Source of the DNA: Polytrichum commune
Taxonomy: Eukaryota > Streptophyta > Polytrichopsida > Polytrichales > Polytrichaceae
Length of the DNA stretch: 64,000 nt
Reading direction: 5' to 3'
NCBI GenBank assembly: GCA_950295325.1
Contig: OX485803.1
Coordinates: 6,636,001 to 6,700,000 of the forward strand
How positions within the stretch are numbered: the stretch's first letter is position 1; the number at the start of each line of letters is the position of its first letter. Shown here in pieces: positions 1 through 54,165 of the stretch. The translations under genes and the position numbers were made by a program. The notes below the pieces were generated by a model, which had not been told where the DNA came from, did not search any database, and was given only the letters and a program-made list of their open reading frames with translations.

Positions 1-282
1 GTGGAGATTTCGAGCTCTGCCTCTCTTTCAACTTGCGAAAACCTAAAAGTCTCGATCCAAATGGGTGGTGTAAGCAACGAACTCACCTGAAACTAAGATA
101 TGCAGCGTTGCCTAGCACTCCATGTGGGCGCCGTGATCGGAGTGCAGCGATGCCTCGAAATTCCTTCGCTCGCTGAATTACAGCAACTGATGTGAAGAGA
201 AGAGATTGCAGTCTTCCGAATTAGGGTTTACGGTGCCAGGTATGAGGGTCTCAAGAGTATCCTAGGTGCAGGTGCTTAGCTT
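1..282 (-). other. Possible 5' exon of a gene running off the left edge
   Basis: A segment of moderate GC. Read on the minus strand it carries a good donor-like site (CAG then GTGAGT near position 90) and a telo-box-like AAACCCTAA near 222-230, an element common near plant transcription starts. No convincing protein was read. This may be a 5' UTR exon of a minus-strand gene lying mostly outside the window, but that is inference from one splice-like site. Confidence 0.2.
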
Positions 283-720
283 GGGCCATACTAAGGTAAC
301 CAGGTCTTAAATGGACACTTTTCTCTCTCTTCACCCACTTCCCGTACCATATGAAGCACACAATCAGCGCGAGATGATTAACAAATCCAAATCGTGCCCA
401 TAGTCACTATCCTCATAATCATCGGAGCTCGTATGTATATTTTTAATTCATTGCCAAAGTGAAGATTTCTGAGCTATTAAATGATCATATAAGTCCCCCC
501 TCCTCCATTATTTTGATTATTACGATTAGATTGAGCACGTAGTCCAATCTTTTTTTAACAAGTGTCTTTTTGGTGTCCGTTTTTAGATTCACATCCAAGT
601 CTATAACACTTAAATATAGATGTTCATTTAAAATCAGACATTGAATTAGGCACATGAACCTTATGGTGGGACCCCGGTGTCCCATAATGCACCGGTTCTC
701 ACATAAAACCCATGTCGACA
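283..720. repeat. Dispersed repeat family F, copy 1
   Basis: The part around 290-410 resembles the inner arm of the large inverted repeat at 22.77-22.90 kb and its mirror near 23.02-23.16 kb; all share GCGAGATGATTA followed by a CAAATC-like string. The part around 485-650 resembles 7.56-7.74 kb, 46.31-46.46 kb and 55.52-55.62 kb, which share an AATCCAATCT...ACATGTCTTT-like core. It is noncoding and looks like an old dispersed mobile element whose ends I could not fix. Confidence 0.5.
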
Positions 721-1021
721 TAAAAAATGGTCAGTTGAAGGCAATCAAAACAACGTTGAGCTTATCTCGACATCATGGACACAACGTGATGTTCGAAATT
801 GGTTTTTATTTTCAATCACTGGCAACCACATATCCAATCATTAAAGAGGTTGCTGAACAACCAACCTCTACGAATGCTTGCTCAAGAATGCTAGGATTGA
901 CTTCTGGCCGGAATTTTTGGCATCAACAATCATCATGTTCTTCTTGGAGCGACCCATTTTGGCCTTGGGTGGACCAACAACTGGATCATCAATAATCACC
1001 ATCGTGGCAAATCACCTCGAC

Positions 1022-1824
1022 CTATCTTTTCTTCGAGCGAGTTGGGGCTAGTGGTACCATATTGCTATGCTCCATGAACCCAATCGGAACTGCAGGGTAA
1101 TACGCGAGATACTCGGGTGGGATCAAGAAATATTTCTTTGATAGCAAGGCCAACTTCTTGGACGACATAATAGAGGCATCTATTGTATGTAAACGAATCC
1201 TAAGCGACTTGTTAGCCACTTCCTCTATAGTGTCAACCGTGGATCCGAATAGATCTCGTAGAATCAATGTTCGGATGATTTCAAAATTCTTCTTGATCAA
1301 CTGGATGTGGGCGACATCGGTGTACAGAGTTGAACTGAGATGCCTCATCCTGAGATGACCTTCATTGAATTCAGAAAAAACTTTGAATGTGTAGCAGGTA
1401 AGGCAGTTCTTTGAAGTATTTGGGTAGAATGGTGTCCCAACCAGTATAGAAAGGTCGACGAGAGTCACGATGATCGATGAAGGTGACAGCAATGGACTTG
1501 ATTTCATTGACAGTATTGACGATATCCATGGGCGTGTAGAAGTTGTTGCTCCTCCTTGTGTTGCAGCACCAGGCAACAGAATATCATGATCAGCTGTGAT
1601 TTGTTCTGCCCAACACAATTATCAAAGACACTATGCAACATCTTTGGCATTTGTTCTACCGTCTTGCAGGCTAAGAGTTTCATGTGGTACATAAACTGAA
1701 GGTTGCAAAGCGCATCAACATCCTTTCGTTGGGCTGGTTCATCGTAAAAAATGACTTCGTTGATGCCACTTAAGTATGTTAGAAATAGGGTAGTAACACA
1801 ACAAGTAAGACGCCAATCATACAA
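1022..1824 (-). pseudogene. Decayed transposase-like gene, C-terminal block
   Basis: Read on the minus strand, three open frames follow one another like one protein broken by frameshifts. The first (1824 to 1504) contains FYDEPAQRKDVDALC and then DNCVGQNKSQ, whose Asp codon is at 1621-1623. The next frame carries a stretch with FIDHRDSRRPFYTGWD. A third (to 1022) carries FNEGHLRMRHLS and ends in PTRSKKR. Asp-Asn-Cys-x-Gly-Gln-Asn resembles the strand around the second catalytic Asp of RNase H-like transposases, and I recall the motif in uncharacterised, transposon-like eukaryotic proteins; that family link is recollection, not a search. It pairs with the block at 3842-4974, with repetitive DNA between. 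The frameshifts make it a pseudogene. Confidence 0.5.
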
Positions 1825-2150
1825 TTAAGATAAATATGAAACATTTTAAGTTGTCAACCAAGAATTTGGCGTGCATTAGACAATGTGTTAGTCCAATAAC
1901 ACAATAATTAGCACAAATATGGTAGCATTAGGCTAATAACACAACAATTAGGGTGTCAATTACACACTTAAGATAAAAATGAAACATTTAAGCATTTAAT
2001 CAAGCATATGGTACGGCTTAGGCTATGAGTTAGTCTAATAAGACAATAATTAATATAAATATGATAGCATTAGGCTAATAACACAACAATTACGGTGCTA
2101 ATTATACAATTAAGACAAAATGAAACATTTAAGCCGTTAATCAAGAAATT
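1790..2150. repeat. Tandem repeat, about 141-bp unit, 2.5 copies
   Basis: Three related blocks recur at about 1795, 1936 and 2077. Each carries an AACACAACAA segment, an ACAATTAAGA segment and an ATGAAACATTTAAG segment. The units are diverged. The array lies inside the gap between the two blocks of the decayed transposase-like gene. Confidence 0.6.
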
Positions 2151-3841
2151 TCAATATGATGTGCCTCCTAAACCACACTCATCGGTTAATCCATTGAACA
2201 TGGTAGATAAATTTATAGGAGCATTTTGATGCCGGAATAGATTCAAAGGCCCCAATTTAGTCTATTGGGACCCAATTTCAATTCACTAACCACAACCCTA
2301 TAGATGTCGTCCCCCATAATATTAAGTGTTGTGAAACTTAATTGTTGAGAACACCGAACATTGACCATGGTAAGTTCTATGAAACTTAACCCTCAAGACC
2401 ATTGGGCCCTAGAATCTGGCCTCACCGCTTTACATGTGACAAACTTAGGCCCCAAAAAAGTTCATAAAGTGGGGCCGGATTAAGGGCTTCAATGGGCCAG
2501 TGCTCTGGCCGGCCTCAGGCCATGTATAAAGTTGCCCTTATAATGTCAACCACAATGAAATTTTGAACCATCACATTTCAATTGAAATAGTCTGTAGATG
2601 GATGGGAGCAACCATAATGAGGCATCGCAAAGCTACCGCCAAAGTCCTCAATTTGGATTTGGATTTTGGATAGTACTGTTGAGTCTTTCTCTTCATCGTT
2701 CATTCAATGTGGTTGTCGTCAAAGTGGTTAGGGATGATGGTGGTAGGAATATTTTGAGTAGGAGCATGTTGTTTGACATATTCTTGGGGCGATCACACCC
2801 CCTTACATTTTGTAACCATGTGCGATAATGGGGTATTTAATGGGGGGATATTTATGCGATTTCCAATAAATTTTCCTCCTTATCCTTATATTTATATTTA
2901 TATTTGTAGATAAATATAAGGTGCATAAATAGAGGGTGCTAAAAATACGTAGCATTGCGAAACCGACTATGTGAGCAACAAGCATTCCATACCATTCTAA
3001 TTGTCATTCATTTGATTTCAATTAGTAGTACCAATCCTAAAGCATTCAAAGTACCATTCAAACCACAACCAATAGCACTTGGATACTAGTTAAAGGCTTA
3101 CCTTGCAAGACCATACCCAAAATCCCAAAAATAACTCATAATCACAAAACCAACAAAGAAGAGACGAACCATGAAAACTAATCCCTAAATCAAATACAAG
3201 CAATTTTTTTTTGCAAAGGATGGCCACTTTGCACCATCAATTTCTATGAAAGAAACCCTAGAAAATGCTAAAAAAAAAATGTGAGCTTGACGATCAAGGA
3301 CTAAGGTTGTGATAAAACCAAAAATGTTTGTAGGAAGTGGTTGAGGGTGACAGTGGAGGCTGTTAGGTTCTAAGCATCAAGCGAGGTCCCACATGTTCAA
3401 CGCCATTGGAAAACCCAATGGCCGTTGAGGAGTGCCAACATATTCCTTCTCCCAAAAAAATCCCACGACATTTCCCTCCATACTAACGCGCTTGATTCAA
3501 ATTTGGATAGAAACTACACACTTCTTCATTCAAGTAGTCAAACTCATAATTATTTCACTAATCCTACTACACACATTTAGGGGGATCCTATGTCTATGAC
3601 CTTATTTTTTTTACTGATTACTAAAATGAAGGAATTATCCACCGCCTTCTTTCACATATAATTGTATAAGGGACATATTTCCAATGCTATGATAGATCTA
3701 ACGAAATTATAATTTTTACCCTAAACGAATTAAATTGACCCTAATTTTTTTCAATCTCACATGTTTTTTATTAAAATTTTCAATTTTAATAATATTTTTA
3801 TATTTTAATTTTGATAGTCACCTCCCCAAGGACGTATTCCT
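2150..3841. other. AT-rich intergenic stretch without a recognisable gene
   Basis: No coherent reading frame was found. Around 2795-2860 the sequence resembles the left end of the inverted-repeat MITE at 62.7 kb (a run of C, then TGTAACCATGTGCG, then a TATTTA/GGGG segment). The rest is poly-A/T rich, and 3725-3815 is almost pure A/T. This stretch separates the two halves of the decayed transposase-like gene, so part of it is probably inserted DNA. Confidence 0.4.
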
Positions 3842-4974
3842 TCACAAACATGGACACCGTTCTGCCTTGGGTGATGGCGGCATCAAGATGAGTCCATTTC
3901 TGTAGAAATAGCCATTCGCGCTCATCTCTGGCAAATCATTGCACTGGAGCTGGATCTCAATCCGAACACAACAATCGCAAACATCTTTGGCTGAACTTAA
4001 CAAGTGCAATCCTAGAGAATACATGTGGATGTACTAGATCCAACGTGAATAAGACATGTTCCTTGCGTTGACGACCTACATTTTTTCTGAGAATATCGAT
4101 TGTAGAGCATAGTCCATGTGATCTGCGGTTCCAATAGATATTGTTTTGGCCGACGATGAGAGCATAGAAAACCATCCTCGACCTGCCAAGTTTCTGCGTC
4201 AACCTTGAGTGCTCGCACATTGGCATCGGCAAGAGCATGGTGAGGAACATTTGGAGCGCGTCACGTATGAAGTGTTTTGAATCCTTGTTTGAGAACCTTT
4301 CGCAAATGCTGGATTTTTGAGCTTCTGACGGGAATGATCGCATCGATCTCCCGTTCCGATAGCCCAGACTGGAGCAAGGTGATCACAATCCCTTCTGATT
4401 GTTGCCATTCTCGCCCGGATTAGACAGTATCCATAGCAGCCCAATGATCTTGAATTTTGTCAATTTGTTCTTGACCAAGTTTCTTAACAGCTCGTTGTCC
4501 CGCTATGTCGTTGCAGTTACTGGGTTCACGAACTTTATGCTGTTTAACAGTTTGCACCAATCCACCGACACCGCCGGTATGGCGAACACAATTGACGCCC
4601 ACAAGTTTGGAGAGTTTCAAGGTAGTTGAGGTTTGTTCGACTAAAGCAGGCGACGAAAAATCCGATAATCCCACAGAAGGCATAAACCCTAAACCCGCAA
4701 CAGATCCCCGATGTAATGATGATACCACTGGCAAATCAAAAGCAATCTTAATGAATTCTAAAGATTTGTTGTTCCCAGCGCATCGCTATAAAGTTTGCAT
4801 CGAGATCACCTGAAACTTCTTGATCTTGTCCAGGGCAATTTGAAATTCGGACATTGAGTGTTGATTCCAATCCTCCTCACGATAACCGATGAGGGCGTGC
4901 ATTCTCTTGTTTAGCTCTTGACTACACTCTTCCTCGGTCTTCTTTGATGCCATTGCAAATAATGCGGGTGCCAA
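3842..4974 (-). pseudogene. Decayed transposase-like gene, N-terminal block
   Basis: Minus-strand frames suggest one broken protein. Its possible start is MASKKTEEECSQELNKRMHA near 4953. A frame from 4734 to 4420 is basic and ends with ...KIQDHWAAMDTV. After a stop, a third frame carries LQSGLSEREIDAIIPV, then WQVEDGFLCSHRRPKQYL and WTMLYNRYSQKK. Near 3842-4024 the frame has VCDCCVRIEIQL. The order and style (helical DNA-binding-like N-terminus, then a Cys pair) fit the N-terminal half of the same transposon-type protein whose C-terminal half is at 1022-1824. Several stops and shifts show it is dead. Assigning both blocks to one gene is inference. Confidence 0.45.
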
Positions 4975-7420
4975 GTTGCCAACACCTTCCCCCTCTCTCT
5001 ATAGGAGATACCTTCTAAACCCTAAAATAAATAATTAATGCATTTCTGGGCTCTCATTTATGTGGGACACAAGTGTCTCGTCATAAGGTTCCAATGTAAT
5101 TTATTCCTCATCATTCCAAGGCATTTGTCACGGTTATGTTTTGTAACTAATATGGATCCATGCCAAATCGGCATGTTGCACATGTGCATACGAAGTGGTG
5201 TCCTTGGCCATCCCTGCACTATCCGTTTAACGTGTAATTGTCAATGGCTAGTTGTTTCCGAAAGGTTGAACATTGACACTCACCATCCATGCGATCACTG
5301 GTCAATGTCATCATTGTGTATAGTACATACAATTATGCATGAAGTCTTTGGATCAAAATGGTTGAAATGTGAGTTTGAGAGGTACTCTATAAATTTTCTC
5401 AAGTTTTCTTGAGACTTAAATAAACATGCTCAAAATGCAATGTTAGGATATTGATATATATATATTTTTTTCATGTTGTCATATTAGGATGCGTGAGCCA
5501 AACTAGCTTTGCATAAGTTGATCCAAGAATTAGGTTGCCATGCCCCATGCGCAAACCCTACTTTACAAGTTATCTAAGTTCTCTCAAATATGTTAGGATG
5601 GCAAGAGGAGGCCAAAGGACTTTCACCTTACTTTCAAATATTAGCCTCCGGAAAAAAAAAACTAACAAAGATAAGGGAGAAGCTAGATCATGAGCATGAG
5701 CATGAGTGGGCCCTTCTTACCAATATTCTAGGGGTTGCATACATTTTTTTGGGACTATTTCAAAGGCCACATACACCCAACTAACCATATTGCAGAGGCA
5801 ACTGCCTAAAATATCCTATGTGATACCCAAATGAGCTTTTGGATATGCCCAAACAACATACAATTGTTTGCCTTTGTAAGTAGTCCAAGCCATGCCGTCA
5901 TAACACATACGGAGAGCACAAAGGTGGGTACAATCATCCAACAAATGGATCACTGTTGAGAAGTTTGGCCATCTCGTAGTCAACAAATGGATCATCTGTT
6001 GAGAAGTATGGCCATAGGATCATGGTGATGATGCATGGCATGCCACAACAATTCCATCTGGTTGGGACCCCTATTTTGTGACTTGCTAAAATCCAAATAA
6101 TTAGACTACTGAGACATTTGGGTAATAGCCTGCACCAAATCATTTACTATGACCTCAAATTATTTATTTACTTTTTGATGTAAATTTTTATTTGTTTATT
6201 TGTTTATTTTCCCGAATGCAGCATGCCAATAATGATGAAAGGTCTTTAACATATTGCAGTTAGGAGTTGCTACTTGTTCCTCAAATGACATGCTCTGTAT
6301 GGGAAACATAAATGAACAAGACATATCTGAACAATCATACTCCAAAAAAAACAAGACATGCTACAAAGCATAATTAATCCTAGTAAAATTACAGTTTTAT
6401 GAGGTATATATGATAATATCAACTCATGGTAGGGCATCGGGTCATTGGCATTACGAACGGACACTTTATTCACGCCGGCCCCTTGCTAAAAAGGGACCGG
6501 AGTTTCTATCTATCTATCTCAACTCATGATCAATGTCATAGGCCCCCACTAGTAAAATTGAAAATGCTAATAGGCCAACCACCCCAAGAGAGAAGCTTGG
6601 TGTTTCAAGATGCAGGTCCTTGATGTTTGTATCCAATCTTTCAATCCCATGACACTCCATTGAGCATCTCCATCATATTTCAATTCTTTGAACTTTTGGA
6701 CCAATTGCACAAACTCTTTCTCATAGCCTCACAAACATGTTTTTTATGTTTCTCAAAAGTTTGCTCCTACTGTAAGATAGTGTATGCTCACCTCCCTCTA
6801 TGGGTTCTTTGGGATTTCCAGAACCAAACACCCTCCGAACGCAATATAATTAGCTTGGACACTATCTGCCATGAAGCCTTTGAAATTGATGCCAAAGACA
6901 TATTGTTCTTTTTCATGAAATTGATCATGTTGAACCAAAGCAAACAATGCAAATCTAAATCTTCAAATTGCATGTTGCATAAACAATAGTCACGACCCCA
7001 CGGAAAACATGGTCATAGATGTGGCATGCCATTGTAGTCCAGCCTTGCACTCTGTATGCATGGTCAAACATCAACCAAACACCTTACAAATCTCCTCCTC
7101 AATGCATCCTCTTAACCAAATCGGCCCCGAACCAGAAGAACTACTAGACATCTTAAACAAACTACACCGTTGAGGAACTTGTCTTGGAAATTGACTATCT
7201 TGTATGAAATCTATGACTTTGGGGCCTGAGCTCCAAGATCTTGTCCATACTTCTTTTTTGTGCATAAGAAGACTTAAAGAAATGAACCTAATCTCGGATG
7301 TTTGGAGAGGAAAGGTTTTTGAACTTTCCCATGAAGTCCTTCATGGATGATGTATCAAAAGGGGTTGCAATTTCACCAACAAGCGCCAACATTGATGTCT
7401 TCTTAAGTAGATGTGTGTTA
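4975..7420. other. Intergenic stretch, no gene seen
   Basis: AT-rich with short accidental open frames only. A telo-box-like AAACCCTAAAA lies near 5016. A TATC microsatellite of a few units lies near 6506-6522. No domain, splice pattern or mobile-element end was recognised. Confidence 0.4.
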
Positions 7421-7760
7421 TTTGGATACTTTTCTTTGTGCACCCACTTCTCATAGGACATAAACACGCAAAGATGGTTAGCAAATCTAGATAATGTCCA
7501 TAGCCATTTGCCTAGTAATACTCAAGCTCATATATATACCTTTATCATTATTCTAGTGAAGCTTCTCGTGCTCATTTAGTGGTCTTGTAAGTCTTCCCAT
7601 TTATTAAGCCTGGAATGGTTTGCATATATTAAGGACGTAATCCAACCTCTATCAAACACATGTCTGTTTTTTGTTCATCCTTAGATCCATACCTAACCAC
7701 ATACCACTAAAATATAGGTGTCCAACTTATTGTTATGTTGGAATTGAGTATGTCCCCCTT
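7420..7760. repeat. Dispersed repeat family F, copy 2
   Basis: It shares the order of short matches seen at 283-720: a CACCCACTT segment, a GATGGTTAGCAAATC segment, then ATCCAACCTCTATCAAACACATGTCT and a final CTAAAATATAGGTGTCCAA-like segment. It is in the same orientation as the first copy and strongly diverged. Beyond it, to about 8870, the DNA is AT-rich with no gene seen. Confidence 0.4.
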
Positions 7761-25347: not shown

Positions 25348-26205
25348 TAACTGTACATGCCCACTTGAGGTGTACCCACATTGGTGGAAGCTATGTGGGA
25401 TCATTCACGGTTAGGGTACTACTTTTGGCCGTCTAACGAAAAACGGATTTTTTTGGATAACTTCACATGCTTGGTATGCTTAGATTTGTATTGTGAAGCA
25501 TATTTTGGATCATACCTACATTTCATACTCCATATCGAGTACACTGACAAAGTTAATTTAGAAGGAATAGGTTCATCTAAGATATCCTTTTGATTCCTTA
25601 AAGGACATTCAGGAGTGTTGTCTTAATTGTTCACCTTAGGATCAAAGAATGAAAAGGACAACAAGAATCAATCGAAACAATCCCAAATTTTTTCCTCACA
25701 CTCATCGTTCAAGTATGTACCAATAGAACCAAATATGTATTGAATAGCAATTGCCCAACTTTACATGTGGCACCAAACATGTCCAAATATACATATACTC
25801 ACGGCCACACGTAAAAGGAACGTCTAGTATTAGAATTAGACAAAAAAAATTATATGAATGGACACATGACACTTTTACCAAGGTACCAAGATACATAACA
25901 GGAAATAATTGACCACCAATGCACACCTAAATAGCAAAAAAATGCCACTGATGTGGCCTAGGGTTTAGGGTTTAGGGTTTAGGGTGATTATTAAATAATA
26001 ATAAAAATCTTTCTTGATAAAGCTTATGAACTATCTACTTATTTATGTAAAATTTATTGATCAAATAATAGTAAATCATGATAAAAACCAAGATTAATGC
26101 GACAAAGTCCTTAAGTCCTTTGTCCCGAAAGTAGTACCCTGATCGTGAATGGCCCCATGTGTCACTGGGTACGACCTACACTATGAATATGTACACAATT
26201 TACTC
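25348..26205. mobile_element. Inverted-repeat-bounded element with ~85-bp ends
   Basis: Left end 25348-25440 carries CATTCACGGTTAGGGTACTACTT; right end about 26105-26205 carries AAGTAGTACCCTGATCGTGAATG, its diverged complement, with GTACCCA-type segments also mirrored. The interior of about 700 bp has no ORF of note and includes a telomere-repeat run. Exact boundaries and duplication were not resolved. Confidence 0.5.
25959..25985 (+). repeat. Short interstitial TTTAGGG telomere-type run
   Basis: Almost four uninterrupted copies of the Arabidopsis-type plant telomere heptamer, ending in AGGGTG. It lies inside the inverted-repeat element and is far from any gene start, so it is more likely an insertion, repair scar or element part than a telo-box. 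Confidence 0.8.
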
Positions 26206-31143: not shown

Positions 31144-31671
31144 TCACTGCTCGGCGCTGGAGCCTCCAGATTGCAGGTAAGGCCGTTCGCCGTTGTAGTT
31201 GCCGGGCGGATTGTAGCTGCAGATGATGAAGGTGGCGCCATCCTTGCAAGAGACCGACGCGCAGCCGACATGCGTGGTGTCGGACCAAACGAGCTGTGTG
31301 TAGTGACCGCAAACTTTGCCGCCTGCGCAGGTGTTGCTGTTGTAGTCGTAGTAAGCCGCCTCCGACGCCCAGCTGTTCACAGCATCAGCACCGGTAAAGG
31401 TCTTCCCCTTTCCCCAGAAAAGATTCTCCCCGTATGGCCCGTGCGAGTGCACCAAAGCGCAGCTGTTCTGGTTGCGCTGCTTCTGTGCGTACTTGAGAGC
31501 GTACTGCGCAAGGTCGCCGCTCCATTCGAGCGCCTTCACGTTCACCTTCGCCCTCACTTGGTTGTGCTCTGGAAGAAAATCCTGCGAGTTTGTAGAATCC
31601 GCAGCGGCGACTGCCATCGTGATCGCTATAACAGCAAACAGTACGACGACACCGAAAGTCATCCTCGCCAT
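31144..31671 (-). CDS. PR-1 type CAP-superfamily secreted protein
   Basis: An intronless 175-aa frame. The start is the Met at 31671 because a signal peptide follows at once (hydrophobic 7-24, likely cleavage after AVAAA). The CAP domain shows FLPEHNQVRAKV (32-43), GPYGENLFWG (78-87), CGHYTQLVW (121-129) and ICSYNPPGN (150-158). Six cysteines (71, 115, 121, 137, 142, 151) match the three conserved disulfides, and H75/H123/E104-type cleft residues are present. PR-1 proteins are secreted to the apoplast, bind sterols and respond to pathogens. Residues 155-165 fit the CAPE peptide pattern PxGNxxxxxPY, but ten more residues follow, whereas PR-1 usually ends there. An upstream in-frame Met at 31776 is unlikely. 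The 3' flank is a MITE. Confidence 0.92.
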   Translation of the reverse strand: MARMTFGVVVLFAVIAITMAVAAADSTNSQDFLPEHNQVRAKVNVKALEWSGDLAQYALKYAQKQRNQNSCALVHSHGPYGENLFWGKGKTFTGADAVNSWASEAAYYDYNSNTCAGGKVCGHYTQLVWSDTTHVGCASVSCKDGATFIICSYNPPGNYNGERPYLQSGGSSAEQ

Positions 31672-31729
31672 CTTGATTCTACGATGTAAGGCAGCCTCTC
31701 CTGTTTCGGTCCACAAAACTAGCGATCGA

Positions 31730-31830
31730 TTTAAACTTCCGCCTCGTTGCTGATAAGTACCGACGTGAAGAGTCACAGAACACTTGCGATCAACTTCACC
31801 TCGGTGCTAGGAAGTATCCATGTGAAGAGT
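31730..31830 (-). promoter_or_regulatory. PR-1 promoter region with duplicated motif
   Basis: TTTAAAT on the minus strand near 31729-31735 is a TATA-like box about 60 bp before the ATG. Upstream, GTGAAGAGTCACAG occurs at about 31765 and again at about 31822 (57 bp apart). The duplicated core contains TGACTC on the minus strand, resembling bZIP-type binding sites. Regulation by such factors is inference. Confidence 0.35.
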
Positions 31831-33573: not shown

Positions 33574-36500
33574 CTAAAGTGCGGAACCACTTGTTGCGTT
33601 AGCTTTGAGGAAGTCTTTGATGTTTTCCACTGCAGCTAATTTGTATTCCATCTCCCGATCTTTGATTGCACTGGTAATACAACAATAGACACAAAGTCAT
33701 CAATAAATTTTACAAGATGCTCTTTCTAAAATAGACTCCAGAGGCGTGATGCACTAGTACAGCATCCACATTTACTGGCAAGTGCTGTCTTGTTGCTAAA
33801 GCAGGAAATGACAGGAGACATAAGACAATACCTGTGACTTAAGCTTGAAAATCTGTACATGCTTGCAAAGACCAGCAAGTGAAGACCAATGGAGTAGAAG
33901 AAGATGAATGTCCGGGCATATCTGCAGAACACACTCTACTGTAAGTCCTCAAATTTCCACTACAATCACAGTGTACAGTCCATAAGTACCAAAATGTCAG
34001 ATAAAGTCATAGCAGATGTTCTTTACTTGTTGCCAAGAAGAAAACGACCACTGGTTAAAGTAATTTTGTCACGGATCCCAAGCTCTTTGTATCTGCGCTC
34101 CTTTTCCTGTCAAGTGATTTTCAAGTCAGATGCAGAATAGCATCCACTAAACTGATCTCTGAGAATTTGATTCCAGTTATCAGGTGCATCATTGTCTAAT
34201 AGGGCAGGTTCAGCATTGAATGCAAAAGCAATATGATACACTTCAATGAACACAGAAAAACCTGCAATTGAGACATTATCCTACAAATACGCAGTAGCAA
34301 ATCACTAACAAGCCTCTTGCAATAAGTAGACATGCTTGCATAGATGAGGAGAGGACTAGAACCTTCTTGGAGAAAGCAGTAAATGGATTTATGTCGTCTT
34401 CATACATCTTCTTATATCTGCTCTCTACTTCCCCACCAGTGCCGGATTCCAAATCCTCCCCACGCTGATAGTCACAGAGAAACCCATGCCACAAGACAAC
34501 CACCCTGGTCAAGGCATATCCAGAATAATGCTGCCGGCTTTACTAAAGAAACCAGCAGTTAAGGCTATCACAAATAATCATCAAAGGAACATTGTTCACG
34601 TTGGGTCATTATTATTAACATGGCTGTGCTTGCATGTGAAACTTTCATTTCACCTGGAAACTTTGAATGAGGCACAAGACTTGAGAAAGTATGGGCAAAG
34701 TGAGGATCCACCTTTTTGCCTCGTGGCATTGGTCGATCTTGTGTATAATCCTGCACAAATCGCATCTTCTCATAAAGCTTCACATTATCAGCTTTGCTGC
34801 GCTCCAGATCTGCTGCCAATGCTTGACAACGATCTCTTGCCAGCCTTAGCTCCTGCACAAGAATCCCAAGTAAATAGGTTACTTTGACAAAACCCTACAC
34901 AAGATAAGAACTATCAATGCTGATATTCCATCGATATATGTCAGATCTAGACAAAACGAGAGTGGGTGATATTCAGGCAGAGAAAGCCCTCACTTCTTCT
35001 GTCTCCCGCAGACGCTGCCGGAAGCGATTGCGCTGGCTACAAATGACGGCCAACATCGAGTTTTGATCCTCTTCACCCGGTGTATTACCACTCCCATTCT
35101 GCTGCTTTTGAAACCAGATATATAAATTGTCAAAAACTTTGAAAAGCAAGTCCTCAACTAACAAGTTCTTAACAACACCTAGCTATGAAGCCAAACCTCT
35201 CACTTAACTCTAAACATCTCACAAACTAGTTCTACTGCAATAAAGAAAACATCAGCACTCACATTCCTACACCCCTGCAATAGAATTGTGCACTTTGCAG
35301 TAGAAGCGTGTTGAAGCATTTTTAGTCCTCAACACACATTTGGTACCTCAAACAAGTTTTGGACACCCGAGTCTGGTACATCCCAGTCGTCTGTTTGCTT
35401 GGCTGGGCGTCGATCATGAGAAGGTCCATACCCCTACAACAAGCAGGTAAATTAATGGCATGTCCTTCCCAGGCACAGCATCTTTGTGCTGTATTTTTGT
35501 TTTCTTGAAACAACCCTGGTTAATTTCTCATCCAAAATGAAACTCACTTCACAATACAACTGGACATGGGGATGATAACCTGAATTGTTGGCCGGAAAAC
35601 ATAAAAAGTCCCAAAAAAAATAGTAGGATAAAATAACATGCCTGATTTTTACAGGCCATGTGGTATTTGGTCAATGTCTTTCACGTAAGGAATATGATAT
35701 TAGAGGGTGACAAACAAGAACAAGAACAAGAACAGAAGTACAATGCAAGCCAGAGGGAGCTAGTCACTCTCAACATCCTATGCTTATGAACATTGTCTCA
35801 TTGAGGTATGTGGGCCTTAAGTGGTAACCATTCTTTATCAGACACCTATATTTGAGTGGTATATTGGCTAGGCTTGTAGTTACAGACAGTCACCAAAACA
35901 ACAGAGTGTTACAAGGTGATTAGACTTCGTGCTTAAAATATAGACACCATTCTAGGTTCAATAGTTAACACAATTGGCAGGGCCTCTGTAAAGAGACACA
36001 GAATCTTCAGTTTGACCTCTTATAACTTTCGCTTCTCAAGTCCGATTCTGAACCTTGAAATGACAATCTTTGAGTTTGCAGCTGCAAACCGAATGAGAAT
36101 ATTCCCAATCCGATACAACAGCCAGATTTGTCTGTGGAGTTGGAAGTGCCCACAGTAGGGCCACAAACCTTATGGTAAGTCCCACAATGTCAAAGTAGAG
36201 GTAGAAGGTAGCAGACTCAAAGAGTTGATGAGTACCTTCAGAATGTCCTCTTCCAGCTTAACAATCAGTATCTTTTGCTCTGCCACCTTTGCCTCTAGCT
36301 CTTTCACCTTCTCTTCAGCTGCTGATGCAGCCTCCATCCTCTCTGACAGTTGCACCTATGCAATCCACACCCCAGAACAAGTCAGTTTGTCCATGTAAGA
36401 AGCCTCTCTAATCCAACTTTGTAAGCCAGGGTAAGAGAATAAAGCTCTCCACTGATCCAGTTTCAGATAACCTGAGAAAGTAGATTCAGATGGATGTTGG

Positions 36501-51714: not shown

Positions 51715-51925
51715 CACCAATGAACGGGTAGTGCCGGCAGTTAGTTACAAGCTAGCCGGTTGATTTTGAGAATTTCCGAATGCAATTGGAAGGTTTAGGA
51801 AGGGGTTCCGGAAGAAAATCAAGGTTTACGGAAATGGGCCGATTAAAAAAAAATGCCGGCATTAAGGCAAGTTGTACTAGAGTATCCACGGCAAATTACC
51901 GATTGAAAATTTATTTTCATGGCGG
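51715..51925. repeat. Family E repeat, reverse copy
   Basis: Contains GTTAGTTACAAGCTAGCCGG then TTGATTTTGAGAATTTCC and further CCGATT motifs in the order of the 32.75-kb copy. It lies just before the hAT remnant. Confidence 0.45.
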
Positions 51926-51988
51926 ACACCCGACCAAATATATATATTTAAGGTAAATTTTTCAATACTATGCATAGTTGGAGACTAT

Positions 51989-52315
51989 GCCTTGTTGGCT
52001 CATGTGCAATGTGTTTCTACAGCGACATGTGAGCATGCTTTCAGTGTACAGAATTTGATCAAGACCAAAGTTAGAAATAGGTTGGGTAGTAAGAATCTCG
52101 ATGCAATGCTGCGAATTGCCTTGGAAGGGCCAGATGAGGAGGTAAATGACATAATTGGTGACTCTATCCCACTTTGGAAGAAGAATAGTAAGTACCGTTT
52201 TTTGTATGCTAATCCCTCTTCTTATTTGAATTCTCCTAATACAGCGAGTGTGAGTGATGTGTCTTGTTCGTTTGGGGCAATTGATATTAAGGGCAATGGT
52301 ACGCAAATATCGTGA
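51989..52315 (+). pseudogene. hAT transposase C-terminal (dimerisation) remnant
   Basis: The plus frame contains HVQCVSTATCEHAFSVQNLI, then KTKVRNRLGSKNLDAMLRIA and PLWKKNSKYRF, ending at a stop at 52313-52315. The C-E-x-x-F-S-x-x-N-x-I-K-T-x-x-R-N-R-L pattern is the hallmark of the hAT dimerisation region, close to the ZNF862-like branch. The N-terminal zinc finger and catalytic core are absent upstream, so only the last ~105 residues remain. It may be a leftover of an element that once could mobilise hAT-like MITEs such as the one at 24.5 kb; that link is inference. Confidence 0.75.
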
Positions 52316-53840: not shown

Positions 53841-54165
53841 TTTTGGCATGCCATGACTCCTTCTAAATTTCTTTGTGCTGAATCGCTTTGGCATGCCATG
53901 GATCCTTGCTAATTTCTTTGTGCTGAATCGTTTTGGCATGCCATGGATCCTTGCTAATTTCTTTGTGCTGAATCGTTTTGGCATGCCATGGATCCTTGTT
54001 AATTTCTTTGTGCTGAATCGATTTGGCATGCTATGGATCCTTGTTAATTTCTTTGTGCTGAATCGTTTTGGCATGCCATGGATCCTTGTCAATTTCTTTG
54101 TGCTGAATCGTTTTGTCATGCCATGGGTCCTTGTTAATTTCTTTTTGCTGAATCGTTTTGGCATG
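53841..54165. repeat. 45-bp minisatellite, about seven copies, open in both strands
   Basis: A 45-bp unit starting TTTTGGCATGCCATGGATCC repeats from 53841 to 54165. Because 45 is divisible by three, one phase on each strand stays open: plus gives MPWILANFFVLNRFG and minus MPKRFSTKKLTRIHG repeated. Changes between units are few and fall in all codon positions, so I see no sign of protein selection. It lies in the probable intron or 5' region before the exon at 54432. Confidence 0.9.

Follow-up and report, generated by a model that had tools for sequence, protein, structure and literature searches.

A probable DUF7869-type transposase relic in Polytrichum commune and its relatives bounded by terminal inverted repeats in bacteria

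We analyzed a stretch of 64,000 nucleotides from Polytrichum commune (contig OX485803.1, positions 6,636,001 to 6,700,000; hereafter the window). A locus at 1022-4998 on its minus strand (window numbering throughout) holds the pieces of a damaged gene, spread over several reading frames. Very probably, the gene once encoded the transposase of a DUF7869-type DNA transposon in a plant-like genome, and this copy is now decayed and catalytically dead. A decayed transposase-like gene had already been proposed from the letters alone (here termed the sequence-only reading), and the proposal is now supported by a DUF7869 profile match, by a predicted core of three aspartates (D-D-D) and by bacterial relatives bounded by terminal inverted repeats (TIRs). 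The bacterial relatives have an Asp triad, TIRs, shared copy boundaries at the tips, short gene-less copies and 5'-AWWT-3' flanks. Together with the RNase H-like topology predicted for their core, these features make it most likely that DUF7869 acts as the DDD transposase of cut-and-paste elements occurring in both bacteria and eukaryotes. The family assignment of DUF7869 is what is new; the window copy by itself is a case of ordinary decay.

Kinship and decay of the window locus

DUF7869-like families had been suggested for a profile search, and this proved to be the right profile. Pfam DUF7869 (PF25273), a profile of 192 positions, matched 1504-1824 with its positions 23-87 (E 1.2e-5); the score of 25.4 bits is 0.6 bits below the curated cut-off of 26 bits. 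When long frames were scanned with stop codons written as X, DUF7869 was the sole family matched, at the same place (E 0.0026). The other pieces of the locus gave no Pfam match below E 0.1, and a sequence search of PDB with the window piece gave no match. A profile made from bacterial relatives, containing no eukaryotic sequence, ranked the piece at 1507-1824 first (13.9 bits, E 0.0022) and the piece at 1374-1583 second (13.7 bits, E 0.0025) among 2878 open reading frames (ORFs) of the window; the third-ranked ORF had an E-value of 1.2, and the top score in 20 shuffled windows was 8.4 bits. Both pieces are collinear with the bacterial profile (positions 421-439 and 481-540), and the order of the DNCxGQNK box and the W..wL..yF.eLp block downstream of it is kept in the locus. 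In tblastn searches with 11 bacterial rows, seven had their top-scoring window match at the locus. One row (L010; bacterial loci carry such handles) gave two linked matches at 1377-1623 with an E-value of 9e-6, two rows gave E-values of 0.006-0.008, and the remainder ranged from 0.05 to 2.4.

Some points weigh against this kinship. The plant locus is linked to the bacteria through two short stretches of a damaged gene, which cover 19 and 60 profile positions, and with 4 of the 11 bacterial rows tblastn scored an unrelated part of the window higher than the locus. The latter result would also suit a chance or convergent match to the motif of the second Asp, with the locus being unrelated non-coding sequence, as would the Pfam score just under its cut-off and the N-terminal, Cys and C-terminal pieces, which are not significant alone. 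Such a coincidence is nevertheless extremely unlikely: a eukaryote-free profile places two independent pieces, collinear but in different frames, above everything else in the window, the best row reaches the linked tblastn E-value given above, and the score exceeds that of each of the 20 shuffled windows.

The gene presumably begins with an open piece at 4789-4998, which has a likely start codon (ATG, 4951-4953). It would continue in the same frame, interrupted by stops, with a 121-aa open piece of the N-terminal region (4423-4785) and with two more open pieces at 4015-4419 (4264-4419 and 4015-4260); no homology was found for any of these putative parts. In a shifted frame, the piece at 3845-4033 carries a Cys pair (AKDVCDCCVRIE; CDCCVRIEI) that had been taken for part of the protein. 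It aligns with SDLCxxCE of the family, but weakly when considered alone (E 6.4 with 86 local pieces searched; for the best row, 4 of 100 shuffles were as good). The core DUF7869 piece at 1507-1824 includes DNCVGQNKSQ, with the codon of the predicted second catalytic Asp at 1621-1623. It is followed in another frame by the piece at 1374-1583 (FYTPMDIV...FIDHRDSRRPF...WDTILPKYFKELP), which accounts for the match to bacterial profile positions 481-540, and in a third frame by a C-terminal piece at 1025-1400 with YFLIPPEYLAYYPAVP and IPPEYLAYYPAVP. The latter bears a by-eye likeness to the HIPxEYxDxxCPxP end of the family; tested alone, 10 of 100 shuffles were as good. All three motifs quoted in the sequence-only reading (CDCCVRIEI, DNCVGQNKSQ and, in its other frame, FIDHRDSRRPF) are present on the minus strand. 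Its two halves, in contrast, are in fact some eight open pieces distributed over several frames, of which only two match significantly, and the 2 kb between the halves showed no DUF7869 sequence.

This 2-kb gap on the minus strand (1775-3820), in which no DUF7869 sequence was detectable, could represent either intronic or inserted sequence, and is the expected site of the block with the first Asp. A tandem repeat with 2.7 copies of a 142-bp unit (1771-2147, plus strand) starts close to the border of the DUF7869 block and may represent an insertion edge or intron content. The first-Asp block was sought in the gap and not found; IMSYFWDFG (about 3116-3142) was considered as a candidate and rejected, as 15 of 100 shuffles were equally good. 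Between the pieces at 1507-1824 and 1374-1583, 34 nt stand against about 41 profile positions, so that the stretch with strand 5 and the third Asp is missing (by eye about 26 residues, with a frame change). The second Asp is the only member of the acidic triad present. Judged from its sequence, the window copy is a catalytically dead relic: its reading frames are interrupted, it has lost the segment of the third Asp, and that of the first Asp was not found.

Bacterial relatives and their catalytic core

Relatives were sought by a scan with the back-translated DNCxGQNKN motif through one genome each of 84,980 prokaryote species. The scan yielded 12 loci, 11 of which encode DUF7869-like proteins; the remaining one (L005) has a 41-aa frame only and was dropped as a chance match. 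The source records include Desulfocicer vacuolatum (L006), Desulfobacterales and other Deltaproteobacteria, Thiomargarita (two records), as well as metagenome-assembled genomes labelled Nitrospirales, Legionellales, Verrucomicrobia, and Cycloclasticus. PF25273 matched all 10 bacterial proteins scanned above its cut-off (E-values from 2.9e-9 to 4.2e-25, 37-89 bits), and in a genome search with this profile 11 of 11 source genomes exceeded the cut-off, compared to 0 of 14 control genomes. NCBIfam contained no fitting model for nine bacterial proteins (matches only far under the cut-off), PHROGs gave no match for three, and a sequence search of PDB with the bacterial alignment returned four irrelevant matches (E 0.35 and worse). 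Four of the loci (L003, L007, L010 and L012) hold copies that are incomplete or broken, and these were kept in the alignments (L010 in the 11-row alignment only); in L007, the gene is split over two frames. L049 contains a divergent DUF7869-like ORF (595-2787) with YMDNGPTNKNQ in place of ADNCxGQNKN and with other repeat tips.

The family is sparse, as few genomes were matched within the groups of its known carriers. Matches were found in (i) 2 of 395 genomes of the L006 phylum (one being L006's own, the other matching over 45 positions); (ii) 14 of 389 genomes of the L006 order (five already known, and most of the other nine short fragments); and (iii) 3 of 42 genomes of the L008 order (two already known). 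The L006 protein had no match in plasmid and phage collections. Among viral contigs, no relative was found with the plant piece (7 pattern stretches) or with the bacterial alignment (56 stretches) as query, and the motif hit one stretch with a 52-aa open frame only.

Three Asp residues (D1, D2 and D3) are aligned in the bacterial relatives, within YS[WF]D[FY][AS]Q, ADNCxGQNK and GHTKFxPD, respectively. In alignments of 10 and 11 rows, the spacing between D2 and D3 was 42 in 11 of 11 rows; of the 10 rows that include D1, eight have a D1-D2 spacing of 79 and two deviate from it (83 and 73). PF25273 apparently starts after the first-Asp block: residues 417-605 of the L004 protein correspond to profile positions 11-189, and its D1 is residue 392. 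The resemblance of DNCxGQNK to the second catalytic motif of RNase H-like transposases, noted in the sequence-only reading, is in line with this arrangement, in which the motif supplies the second Asp of the predicted D-D-D core. The conserved D, D, D/E series expected there is likewise found in the bacterial relatives, whereas in the window copy it is incomplete.

An AlphaFold2 model of the core (226 residues, 11 rows; predicted template modelling score, pTM, 0.79) displayed the order strand-strand-strand-helix-strand-helix-strand; D1 (D22) is part of strand 1, and D2 (D101) directly follows strand 4. In a fold search of PDB with this core, a terminase nuclease, NurA, Argonaute, and piggyBac transposase (RNase H-fold) were near the top. 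The full-length model retrieved Argonaute, the C-terminal half of UvrC, and two transpososome chains, all weakly, and a BFVD fold search gave nothing at E <= 1e-3. Two aspects of the core search speak against the assignment: none of the matches came to 1e-3 or below (E-values of 4e-3 and worse), and they also included MutS and, at ranks 5 and 6, acetyl-CoA carboxylase. Since the matches lean towards RNase H but include these other proteins and stay short of 1e-3, the modelled RNase H-like fold of the DUF7869 core is considered likely, although unproven.

Ends, copies and flanks

Of the 9 bacterial loci tested, 8 have the gene enclosed by inverted repeats of 30-61 bp. The repeats scored 24-52; at none of the eight loci did any of 200 shuffles equal the observed score, and 16 sham ORFs scored 14 or less. 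At L010, the left repeat was not seen, and the right tip is degenerate (GAAT). The tips mostly read 5'-TGGG...CCCA-3', and the element size is 2.05-2.12 kb in five of the eight loci with repeats. L049 has a further inverted pair of 39 bp (35 of 39 alike).

Copies from different genomes share these boundaries. L006 and L071 are 90% alike, and the likeness stops exactly at the repeat tip; for L013 and L072 (88% alike), it stops 4 bp past the tip. The L013 genome also has two gene-less copies of 125 bp (L073 984-1108 and L074 1152-1276), which resemble miniature inverted-repeat transposable elements and are 96% alike over 129 bp; 27-34 of 40 bp at their ends are identical to the L013 tips. Two copies of the L012 element with internal deletions and the same junction were found at contig starts in the L012 genome (L058 1-118 and L059 1-118). 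Their sequences agree to 99% as far as the tip, beyond which the flanks differ. Two further observations concern these genomes: a lone 61-bp terminal-repeat stretch (L075 1452-1512) in the L013 genome is 87-89% like that of the L011 element, and an ORF at L006 4065-4595 on the plus strand, presumably IS3-like from its look, reaches into the L006 element at its left tip, which gives the impression of an insertion into this ORF; a resumption of the ORF on the right was not seen.

Flanks were compared for nine copies read at both ends, leaving out L004 and L049 with their other tips; the right flank of L048 consists of N letters. The tips were cut by hand at TGGG/CCCA, so that only the outer three bases of each flanking 4-mer are free observations. 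Position -3 was A and position +3 was T in all nine copies (background 0.31 each), and hence the 4-mer reads 5'-AWWT-3' at 17 of 18 ends, the exception being ATGT. The left and right 4-mers are identical in five of the nine copies. Six more right ends were inspected, and those of L071, L072, L012, L058 and L059 fit the AWWT pattern; that of L010 does not. Read in this way, the flanks would suit a 4-bp duplication of AWWT and, equally, a 2-bp duplication of WW.

Not all bacterial data favor a mobile element. The flanking 4-mers differ between the two sides in four of the nine copies, at most one full-length copy was present per genome (11 source genomes), and neither a transposition event nor an empty site was seen around L013 (5 genomes) or, among the matches listed, around L006 (86 genomes), where flanks occurred only in pieces. 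The tips of L004 and L049 lack TGGG. At L004, one pair of inverted repeats encloses both the DUF7869 gene and an ISL3-type transposase ORF (239-1579, plus strand; PF01610, E 1.8e-61), so the repeats are ambiguous and may not belong to the former.

Terminal repeats around such genes, a further expectation of the sequence-only reading, were thus recovered in the bacteria; those of the window copy itself were not identified, which is another point against a transposon origin. The best candidate TIR has its left arm at 652-684 and its right arm at 5063-5097 (plus strand), and is not clearly above chance: pairs as good occurred in 21 of 500 shuffles and in 6 of 208 control intervals, which overlap one another, and its outer tips show no TGGG. 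With the ends unproven, the locus could instead derive from a host gene with a DUF7869 domain, ordinary or domesticated, that became a pseudogene. No second DUF7869 copy was seen within the 64-kb window, and the 2-kb gap could be an intron, its edges being fairly splice-like by eye; both would fit a host gene. We consider such an origin very unlikely, as the bacterial relatives are TIR-bounded and leave short gene-less copies, and another transposase relic, a hAT piece, lies in the same window.

Mechanism, placement of the family and window surroundings

To judge from its relatives, an intact enzyme of this type would have 600-730 aa, with Cys pairs ahead of the core as a probable zinc- or DNA-binding part. 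This protein, with its RNase H-like core, would bind the inverted repeats, whose tips are 5'-TGGG...CCCA-3' in most bacterial copies. The three Asp of YSxDYAQ, ADNCxGQNKN (usually 79 residues on) and GHTKFxPD (42 on) would hold two metal ions. The enzyme would then cleave the element ends and transfer them to a 5'-AWWT-3' target, of which either the whole or only the middle two bases would be duplicated. Cut-and-paste is assumed here instead of copy-out, and eukaryotic members would be expected to have the same kind of ends as bacterial ones.

We see roughly even chances that DUF7869 constitutes an unclassified superfamily of DDD cut-and-paste transposons common to bacteria and eukaryotes, whose bacterial members have TGGG..CCCA ends and insert at AWWT, comparable to IS1016-Merlin or IS1380-piggyBac and with the plant relic as the trace of a past invasion; 'unclassified' refers to the Pfam, NCBIfam and literature searches made. 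Literature searches for DUF7869 or PF25273 found no paper naming either, and motif strings led to irrelevant papers only. PF25273 is the nearest description, matching both the window piece and the bacterial relatives, and its name gives no function. Pairs of bacterial and eukaryotic transposons listed in the accessible portion of PMC10045372 are IS630-mariner, IS1380-piggyBac, IS1016-Merlin, ISAzo13-Zator, IS256-MuDR, IS5/ISL2-Harbinger, and IS481-IS481EU; within that portion, DUF7869 does not serve as descriptor of any of them. If the superfamily is real, one more pair would join this short list. A domain of unknown function would gain a concrete role, testable on bacterial elements that are small and have clear ends. 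The window copy alone tells only of the past presence of such an element in a plant-like genome.

It is unlikely, though less so than a host-gene origin, that DUF7869 is instead a distant branch of prokaryotic ISAzo13 and eukaryotic Zator, which are RNase H-like transposases of both domains of life, as predicted for DUF7869. One of the 10 bacterial proteins weakly matched DDE_Tnp_ISAZ013 (E 0.018, 14.5 bits), but this single match lies far below the cut-off of 26.9. The third acidic residue of ISAzo13 is part of a Glu motif, unlike the Asp of DUF7869, where D3 sits in GHTKFxPD. Zator resembles ISAzo13, and both make 3-bp duplications according to the accessible text of PMC10045372, whereas the AWWT flanks of the bacterial DUF7869 elements fit 4 bp or 2 bp.

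IS1380/piggyBac also has bacterial and eukaryotic members; the piggyBac structure 6x67 ranked 13th in the fold search with the DUF7869 core, and a 4-bp duplication, possible for DUF7869 elements, would be a further likeness. Its termini are given as 5'-CC..GG in the part of PMC10045372 at hand, in contrast to 5'-TGGG..CCCA in DUF7869 elements. None of the 10 bacterial DUF7869 proteins had an IS1380/piggyBac or KDZ Pfam match at E 0.1. KDZ transposases with CxC clusters (PF18803 and others) have Cys clusters ahead of an RNase H-like core, an arrangement also predicted for DUF7869; the window, however, shows a chance-level CxC2 match only (E 0.13), which shares its frame with the C-terminal piece.

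Elsewhere in the window, the hAT relic is a C-terminal dimerisation piece at 51881-52312 on the plus strand (PF05699, E 0.0033, under the curated cut-off). An intact-looking ORF on the minus strand (31147-31806) encodes a CAP/PR-1-like secreted protein (PF00188, E 2.1e-23). These two features and the TAGGGTT array described below agree with a plant origin of the window without proving it. A short dispersed repeat, about 70% alike between copies, occurs at 527-626, 7625-7724, and 35842-35936, one copy lying beside the 3' side of the relic. At 53841-54165, a 45-bp unit is repeated in 7.2 copies, with both strands open. Finally, TAGGGTT, which we take to be the plant-type telomere unit, is repeated 3.9 times at 25959-25985 inside the window.

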